Shown here piece after piece: positions 50,810 to 53,245 of a DNA stretch of 64,000 bases (position 1 is its first letter; every line of letters begins with the position of its first letter). The notes under the pieces were generated by a model. The model saw only the letters and a list, made by a program, of their open reading frames with translations. It did no database searches and was not told the DNA's origin. The translations under genes were made by a program, and so were the position numbers. Location of the stretch: assembly GCF_026988655.1 (NCBI RefSeq), contig NZ_JALSKT010000010.1:1-64000 (forward strand), given 5' to 3'. This DNA is from Sulfurimonas sp. (GTDB lineage: Bacteria; Campylobacterota; Campylobacteria; Campylobacterales; Sulfurimonadaceae).

Positions 50810-52683
50810 TACTTTCTCTTAGCCATTTTAATATATATATGCAGTATTTCTATAGCAGCAGGTGTAATCCCGCTGATATTCATCGCTGCTTGTAAGGTTG
50901 GTGGATTAAACTCTGCTAATTTCTCTTGAATTTCATTACTCAGACCACTTACAATTGAAAAGTCAAAACCTTCTGGGATAGCAATTTTGAGATATTTTTT
51001 CATACGCTCTATCTCTAAACTTTGCTTCTCAACATAACGTGCATACTTTCCTTCGACTAATATTTCTTCTTTTATATAATCATCATATTTGTCAAGCTCA
51101 GGCATGATAGTTATCATTTTTTGCACATCAAAAGTTTTACGCGCTACAAGCTGCTGTGCCGTTGAGACATCTTTGAGCGGTTGTTCGTCCATAGATTCCA
51201 ACAAAGCATTAAACTCTTTATTTGGGGTAAATTTTGTCTCTTCTAAAAGTAGTGCTCCGGCTTGAATCTGCTCTGCTTTTAATTTTATTTTTTCATACTG
51301 TTCATCCGAGATAAGACCTAGCTCATGTCCATAATGTCCGAGTCTTACATCCGCTGACTCTTCACGAAGAAGGAGTCGGTACTCTGCACGTGATGTAAAC
51401 ATTCGATAGGGTTCATTTGTTCCTTTTGTAACAAGATCATCAATAAGAACACCGATGTAAGCTTCATCTCGACGAAGGATTAAAGGCTCTTTTCCTTGAA
51501 GTGAAAGCACTGCGTTTATACCTGCCATAATTCCCTGTGCGGCAGCTTCTTCGTATCCAGTCGTTCCATTTATCTGACCAGCTAAATAGAGACCTTTGAT
51601 CTTTTTCGTCTCTAAAGTATGTTTTAATTCACGGGGATCCACAAAATCATACTCTATCGCATATCCATAACGAACAATTTTTGCATCTTCCATTCCTTTT
51701 ACAGAGTGAATCATCTCTCTTTGCACTTCTGGTGGCAAAGAAGTACTCAATCCATTAACATATATTTCAGTGTTGTCCATCGTTTGTGGCTCTAAAAAAA
51801 GATGATGTCTCTCTTTGTCAGGAAACTTGTCTATTTTATCTTCAATAGAGGGACAATATCTTGGACTTTTTCCTGCAATTTGTCCAGTAAAAAGCGGTGC
51901 TCTATAAAAATTACTCTCTATAATACTATGCGTATCTGGATTTGTATAAGCGATATAACAAGGTAGCTGTTTTTTTGTTTTTCTAAATTCTTCACGATTT
52001 GTTCGAAAACTAAATGGATTTGGTAGAGCATCTCCATCTTGTTCTTCCATCACAGAAAAATCAATCGTTGAGCTATCAATCCGTGCACAAGTACCTGTTT
52101 TAAGACGTGCCATGTTAAGACCAGCATCATTTTTAAGTGAAGCACTCAGCCCTACACTTCTTTGTTCTCCATATCTTCCAGCCTCTTGTTGCACTTCACC
52201 TACATGAATAATTCCATTTAAAAATGTTCCTGAAGTGATGATGACTTTTTTTGCTCTATACTCATTTAAAAGCGTTGTTACAACACCTCGTACTTCATTG
52301 TTTTCAATAATTAATGACTCAACAGTATCTTGCGCTAAATCTAAATTTGGCGTATTTAAAATAACATTTCTAGCAATAACACGATATCTATCCATGTCAA
52401 TCTGTGCGCGGCTTCCACGAACGGCAGGACCTTTTGTTTGATTAAGGATGCGAAATTGGATTCCGGCCTCATCTGTGATAAGTCCCATCTCTCCACCAAG
52501 TGCATCAAGCTCACGAACTAAATGCCCTTTTGCAAGCCCACCTATTGCAGGATTACAGCTTGTAGCACCAACATTTTCTGCGAGCATTGAGATCAACAAG
52601 GTTTTTTTACCCATTCTTGCGGCAGCTAAGGAGGCTTCAACGCCTGCATGACCGCCACCAACTACTATTACATCATAATTCAT
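50809..52683 (-). CDS. mnmG: tRNA uridine-5-carboxymethylaminomethyl enzyme MnmG
   Basis: A 624-residue FAD protein that with MnmE modifies the wobble uridine of tRNAs. The dinucleotide motif [23 protein letters not shown] opens the protein, and [12 protein letters not shown] and [12 protein letters not shown] are family hallmarks. The Cys-containing tail [17 protein letters not shown] is also present. MnmD further down (56.4 kb) acts in the same wobble pathway. Confidence 0.96.
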
Positions 52684-52704
52684 TTAAAAATCCATTTTAT
52701 TATC

Positions 52705-52976
52705 TTAAAGTGTTTGATCACAAAATATACCATCAGCAGCAATAAAAAAAGTATTCTAGTGCTAGACAGATTTTCGCAGAACTAGCAGGGCTAATTCAAG
52801 GAAATCTAACGACGCAATAGGATACTTTTTTTATCGCCCACAGGGAAACCTAAAAAGACAACTACTGACTGCGTTAAAAGCACTTGAAGCTACTAGTAGC
52901 TCCTGCGTACTTTTGCCTTGCATTAGTCATCTTTTTATGTTTCTGCTGTTAGTATACTCTTTGATCAAACACTTAA
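52705..52976. repeat. Large imperfect palindromic (foldback/MITE-like) element
   Basis: This fills most of the 358-bp gap between mnmG and the next gene. Outer arms of about 45 bp (52705-52750 and 52931-52976) share TGTTTGATCA and most other bases in inverted orientation. Resemblance continues inward, for example CTAGTGCTAGACA against CTAATGCAAGGCA, to a CCCACAGGG centre near 52838. Each half also forms its own double-stem hairpin. No transposase is encoded. It may be a non-autonomous mobile element or an RNA-forming repeat. Confidence 0.7.
52751..52833 (+). ncRNA. Possible structured RNA within the foldback element
   Basis: GTATTCTA (52751) pairs with TAGGATAC (52818-52825), and inside it AGATTTTC pairs with GGAAATCT. 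Each is an 8-bp stem containing one G-U pair that exists only in plus-strand RNA. The closing stem is followed by TTTTTTT, like an intrinsic terminator. No promoter or known family is recognised. Confidence 0.35.
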
Positions 52977-53041
52977 TGCGAATTTTATCATTTTTCAGTA
53001 TCATTTGCATAATATATAGGAAATTAATTAAGGTTTTTAAT

Positions 53042-53245
53042 ATGAGTGCAGAACTATTTAAAGATTATGTACCTGAGATACTTGAATATGACCCTAAAGT
53101 TGATGGAAGTTATGAACATAAAATTCGAGACGAACATCTCAGTACAAAAGAAAAACTACTCGAAAAAATCAGAAAAGCAAAAGCTGCTGCAAAAGGGAAC
53201 CAAACAACCTACAGACAGCCGATTCGTACGGAGAATGAAAGATAA
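53042..53245 (+). CDS. Small charged hypothetical protein
   Basis: 67 residues from the ATG at 53042 (MSAELFKDYVPEILEYD), with AAGG upstream. The longer track version from 52913 would read through the palindromic element and lacks a ribosome-binding site. The protein is Lys/Glu-rich and helical (KEKLLEKIRKAKAAAKG). Its TAA overlaps the ATG of the Sel1 gene, so the two are coupled. No family recognised. Confidence 0.65.
   Translation: MSAELFKDYVPEILEYDPKVDGSYEHKIRDEHLSTKEKLLEKIRKAKAAAKGNQTTYRQPIRTENER

Follow-up and report, generated by a model that had tools for sequence, protein, structure and literature searches.

A MITE-like intergenic element in a Sulfurimonas-like genome carrying two inverted copies of a covarying hairpin module

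The window analysed here is a 64,000-nt stretch of a Sulfurimonas sp. contig (NZ_JALSKT010000010.1). Within it, mnmG (minus strand, start at 52683; identity supported by a Pfam GIDA match) is separated by a 358-bp gap from an ORF of 67 aa (plus strand, start at 53042), which is followed downstream by a Sel1-repeat gene. The first-pass annotation had described this gap as filled by one large imperfect palindrome at 52705–52976. This description was borne out, with inverted arms at 52699–52779 and 52903–52983, and to it we add that the two flanking genes are divergent. The insertion between mnmG and the small ORF measures 266 bp, and its features are as follows.

52708–52973, no strand: whole element, 266 bp when the TA on each side is taken as target duplication (empty-site comparison)
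52706–52707, no strand: left flanking TA, or part of TTAA 52705–52708 (sequence and empty-site comparison)
52708–52740, plus strand: left side of the outer stem P1, terminal inverted repeat beginning AAAGTGTTTGATCA (folds of both strands)
52743–52833, plus strand: arm A, a hairpin in the plus sense (arm model R1, 84.3 bits, E = 3.9e-15)
52837–52845, no strand: P3 mini-hairpin CCC-ACA-GGG between the arms (sequence)
52850–52938, minus strand: arm B, the same hairpin as arm A in the minus sense (arm model R1, 78.9 bits, E = 7.5e-14)
52943–52973, minus strand: right side of the outer stem P1, beginning TGATCAAACACT (folds of both strands)
52974–52975, no strand: right flanking TA, or part of TTAA 52973–52976 (empty-site comparison)

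Upstream of the small gene, a block that is promoter-like in appearance (GCGAATTTTATCATTTTTCAGTATCATTTGCATAATATA, 52978–53017) is strongly conserved in nearly all relatives compared; it begins at most 5 bp from the insertion.

Compared with 200 dinucleotide shuffles, both strands of the element folded much more stably (z = –7.7 for the plus strand and –10.6 for the minus strand). The stems proposed by the first-pass annotation were recovered in full. In the plus sense, the left half forms the nested 8-bp stems GTATTCTA/TAGGATAC and AGATTTTC/GGAAATCT, with one U-G pair each, and the outer left stem runs into the seven Ts (TTTTTTT) with which this half had been said to end; in the minus sense, the right half pairs AAAAGTAC with GTGCTTTT and GGAGCTAC with GTAGCTTC through U-G and G-U pairs. 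An innermost left hairpin, GAACTAGC/GCTAATTC, which contains a C.A mismatch in the plus sense, had been overlooked. Each half is a complete hairpin of ~90 nt with conserved internal loops, and the CCC-ACA-GGG mini-hairpin separates the two. An arm runs in the order outer stem, CAAGGC, second stem, GCAGG, terminal hairpin, TTCAAG, second stem, AACGNAG and outer stem; in arm A the outer stem ends in T7, enclosing the internal loops, second stem and hairpin, and arm B, read on the minus strand, is a hairpin of the type that arm A forms on the plus strand. Eleven copies in the same genome adopt the same overall fold, namely P1, arm A, P3 (3-bp stem and 3-nt loop), arm B and the return of P1. P3 was found between the arms as [CT]CC-NNN-GG[GA] in 92 of 98 two-arm elements, with a GNA loop in 61 of these 92.

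Comparison with relatives revealed unoccupied sites. In G014 and G023 the empty site TATTATCTTAATGCG stands against the filled arrangement TATTATCTTA..element..CTTAATGCG in the window, and the mnmG gap of both genomes reads uninterrupted (TATTATCTTAATGCGAATTT) exactly at the insertion point. A second copy from the window's genome, L010, likewise corresponded to uninterrupted sites in G014, G023 and G011. The flanking duplication in the window could be 2, 3 or 4 bp as read from the sequence, because the palindromic ends of this family make TA, TTA, TTAA or zero duplication indistinguishable. For the families outside G039 in general, both a uniform 4-bp TTAA duplication and zero duplication are compatible with the palindromic ends. 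Unambiguous 5-bp target duplications came from the G039 family only, whose elements (ends ACTGATG..CATCAGT) are flanked by 5-bp duplications that match perfectly and of which several are non-palindromic (TCATA, TTGTA, TAGGA, GATAA, TCCAA). Judged by sequence, these non-palindromic duplications are the mark of transposition. Separately, the mnmG gap of several relatives (L122, L127, L132, L133, L137) holds a different foldback with ends like AAGTTTATATAAGTGGTT..AACCACTTATATAAACTT, and in G011 (L120) a copy of the present element from a different family is nested in such a foldback. The mnmG gap seems to be an insertion hot spot.

The window's genome is a Sulfurimonas-like assembly of 1.97 Mb in 87 contigs, 96% complete. 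When the window copy was used as a DNA query, about a dozen more copies were found in this genome at 77–94% identity over parts of the element, and near-identical copies occurred at several loci of one genome. A single-arm covariance model built from 18 arms gave 38 matches in the same genome at E ≤ 8e-5, mostly plus/minus pairs ~16 bp apart, at least one of the 38 being the reverse strand of another arm. Among 60 relatives, 26 had matches to the model. A survey of 397 genomes drawn from the phylum, at E 1e-5, gave matches in 51 genomes belonging to 22 of the 68 genera and none in the remaining 346; in the named genome collection, matches fell in Sulfurimonas, Helicobacteraceae MAGs, Nitratifractor and Sulfuricurvum. 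The arm core also occurs outside Campylobacterota, in Clostridia and Gammaproteobacteria. A plasmid of Subdoligranulum variabile was matched by BLAST and scored 67.5 bits with the arm model (E = 8e-14 in 5 kb), and BLAST with this plasmid copy led on to replicons of Pseudoalteromonas and Catenovulum, where a single arm sits at the tip of a long hairpin; the arm model confirmed the Pseudoalteromonas copies at 46.7–48 bits. No matches were found in the phage records and viral contigs searched, nor in the E. coli genomes searched with the GC-rich G039 arm. The first-pass annotation had proposed a genome-wide search and had named a lack of other copies as a point against its reading; many other copies exist.

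Two-arm elements (n = 86) were mostly 262–276 bp long despite unrelated stem sequences, and 46 elements with trimmed ends measured 261–271 bp. The copies lie between genes that are tandem in 25 cases, divergent in 14 and convergent in 6. One locus in a Sulfurimonas MAG (L213, around 1841–1930) retains the element's ends and lacks one whole arm. A candidate for a larger, gene-carrying relative (L150, the one pair of arm matches ~800 bp apart) was rejected and read as two separate elements.

Covariance modelling across copies, which had also been proposed together with absence of covariation as a second point against the reading, gave strong covariation. Among 143 distinct arms, 95.2% of cells held a standard pair, a fraction inflated by the fitting of the alignment to the model; the stems were nearly ungapped, and some weaker reverse-strand matches were included. 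The covariation score of these arms was 0.836, compared to 0.230 ± 0.007 after shuffling and at most 0.177 for slid structures, and two-sided changes were present in all 33 of 33 pairs. The 18-arm starting set gave the same picture.

We then counted, for 149 non-redundant arms in their own forward sense, the mismatch types that distinguish one strand from the other, using alignments that had been fitted with a model whose training arms were in that same sense. The inner six pairs of stem1 contained 195 G-U against 6 A-C, and stem2 contained 139 against 9. Left arms (n = 63) and right arms (n = 61), whose DNA senses are opposite, showed the same excess when counted separately. Part of it lies at fixed positions beside the internal loops, and this part may represent conserved sequence rather than free G-U exchange. 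Given this large surplus of G-U over A-C when every arm is read in its own sense, selection seems to maintain each core in a single-stranded, folded form, with the two cores of an element on opposite DNA strands. At the nine outermost pairs of stem1 (22 G-U, 15 A-C), pairing is nearly strictly Watson-Crick with no clear strand preference, and these stretches look like plain DNA palindromes. The earlier proposal that the hairpins are favoured on opposite strands therefore holds for left and right arms alike. Its reading of the paired changes as selection for RNA structure stands as far as selection for a single-strand fold goes; the strand itself is probably RNA, although G.T pairs formed in single-stranded DNA would produce an identical signature. 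The two identities then offered as alternatives, a structured RNA present as an inverted pair and a MITE, appear to apply together, with MITE-like movement and a body made of two inverted copies of the structured motif.

The module and the ends that surround it did not travel as one unit. Two copies in one genome, L007 and L010, are 85% identical over 214 interior bp (in inverted orientation) while their outer ~28 bp cannot be aligned, and L154 and L173 share 81% identity over 207 bp with unrelated ends. From these alignments, the interior module and the transposon ends are separable. The ends found around the module are of TA-centred, 5-bp-duplication and IS5-like types. For one element family the transposase partner is clear, because the terminal GAACCCTCTGARCAA of L330, an IS5-family transposon in the same genome (NCBIfam IS5_4, 252 bits), is common with the ends of element L158; L330 and L331 are the IS5-family counterparts of these ends. 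Between its ends L330 holds only the transposase gene and short flanks, and none of the arm matches of this genome lies on it. An element fragment (L330 2572–2640, contig C39; AAGTAACTCTCCATAAATAATCCC at its start) directly adjoins the IS5-family transposon. For the window element's own ends, no partner was found among the transposase families searched (PF01609, PF13358). IS630 (PF13358) was rejected as the partner of the TA-flanked families, being absent from the window's genome and from most carriers. In G011, 31 matches to DDE_Tnp_1 were counted; about a dozen of them score equally and are copies of a single insertion sequence, a pattern suggestive of recent expansion.

We believe, with slightly better than even confidence, that the element is a non-autonomous, MITE-like element carrying a conserved two-arm fold module that probably acts in RNA. 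It sits at a TA/TTAA insertion site, upstream of the conserved promoter-like block of the small gene, its terminal inverted repeats presumably serving an insertion-sequence transposase acting in trans. The interior is a conserved structural module, with two inverted hairpins of ~90 nt, fixed loops (CAAGGC / AACGNAG and GCAGG / TTCAAG), the mini-hairpin and a near-constant length. Covariation and the G-U bias indicate that selection maintains the hairpin core in its own sense, folded as a single strand, which is probably RNA. With the arms inverted, transcription entering from either flank would encounter a correctly oriented arm first, and the inverted pair may exist for this reason. Such an orientation-independent, cis-acting RNA could shield the element or its neighbours against the consequences of read-through; alternatively, it could be processed by a host RNA-binding protein or RNase. 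A broader proposal, to which we give somewhat less than even weight, is that the module is a mobile structured nucleic-acid domain, probably RNA, which occurs in at least three bacterial groups as a passenger within ends of different transposase types and is built as an inverted pair, allowing it to function regardless of which strand is transcribed or single-stranded.

Another reading, which we regard as unlikely though worth weighing, is that the arms act as single-stranded DNA, as lagging-strand or cruciform hairpins that are recognised by the transposition or replication machinery and whose fold is selected for mobility. The arms would then be likened to REP hairpins or IS200/IS605 ends, and their inversion would put one correct hairpin on each strand. 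The nearly strict Watson-Crick outer stems without strand bias fit such a role, as does the near-constant element length, and selection on a mobile element acts most directly on mobility. The P3 loop is moreover mostly GNA closed by C-G, a combination that is exceptionally stable in DNA. However, three genomes rich in the element (G000, G001 and G026) lack PF01797, the usual family of single-strand (Y1) transposases, and with the module inside ends of three different types, no one transposase explains it.

It is improbable, in our estimation, that the element belongs to an ordinary MITE family in which template-switch (quasipalindrome) correction maintains the palindromes, the core being shared by descent and functionless. 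Foldback MITEs are common, and templated correction would give just the near-perfect compensation with few G-U intermediates that the outer stems display. Yet such correction would also remove the core's U-G positions and its asymmetric internal loops, both of which persist under unrelated stems; the asymmetric core reaches Clostridia and Gammaproteobacteria, and the more than 15-fold excess of G-U over A-C in the core would be left without a cause. A mobile bidirectional terminator or insulator, built of A-tract/hairpin/T-tract stems, is very doubtful, since although a T7 run follows the strong hairpin of arm A in the window and outer stems are purine-rich 5' and pyrimidine-rich 3' (A-T 683 and G-C 214 vs T-A 242 and C-G 82), many arms end without a T-run (e.g. 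TCTGCTATA, CCTTTTAAA), copies are not enriched between convergent genes, and termination has no need of the conserved internal loops.

As an object, the MITE-like element is of a known kind. It is short, non-coding and multi-copy with terminal inverted repeats, and it shows empty orthologous sites and target duplication, the 5-bp duplication coming from the G039 family only. These traits it shares with MITEs derived from IS5-type and other insertion sequences, including target duplication (proved for one family) and ends common with a full insertion sequence (again for one family). MITEs are usually regarded as dead remnants of insertion sequences. In contrast to IS-derived MITEs, the present body is no evident insertion-sequence remnant and consists of a covarying two-hairpin module that occurs with unrelated ends and different duplication types. 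The body shows strong selection for its fold, independent of the surrounding transposon ends, and this fold recurs in distant bacteria; how a gene-less element manages to persist through what it carries can be tested directly here. No description of a covarying two-arm module across unrelated transposon ends and distant hosts was found in the literature searched, which included few subscription journals. Like the structured RNA families of Rfam, the arms can be described by a covariance model in which covariation is strong and the loops are conserved; a search of Rfam 15 gave no family for the window copy (E ≤ 1) and none for the Clostridia copy (E ≤ 10), and the elements offer an RNA (or DNA) motif absent from that release, with more than 100 varied examples to work from. 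An identity as attC sites was dropped, as the core motifs of such sites seem to be lacking.

REPINs of REP-RAYT systems are similar in that two inverted hairpins form one mobile intergenic unit and several sequence families occur per genome, but the present hairpins are ~90 nt long with internal loops, compared to 20–40 nt for REPs, and terminal repeats are present. A REP/RAYT reading was rejected on the same absence of PF01797 (Y1) from the three element-rich genomes, and an IS200/IS605-type reading on the absence of this HUH Y1 transposase from the window's own genome at 96% completeness. The foldback, MITE-like repeats ERIC, BOX, RUP and Correia are likewise intergenic, mobile and structured if transcribed. 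Each of these is largely one sequence, whereas here the stems differ completely between families with pairing and loops kept, and this variety spans several genera and phyla.
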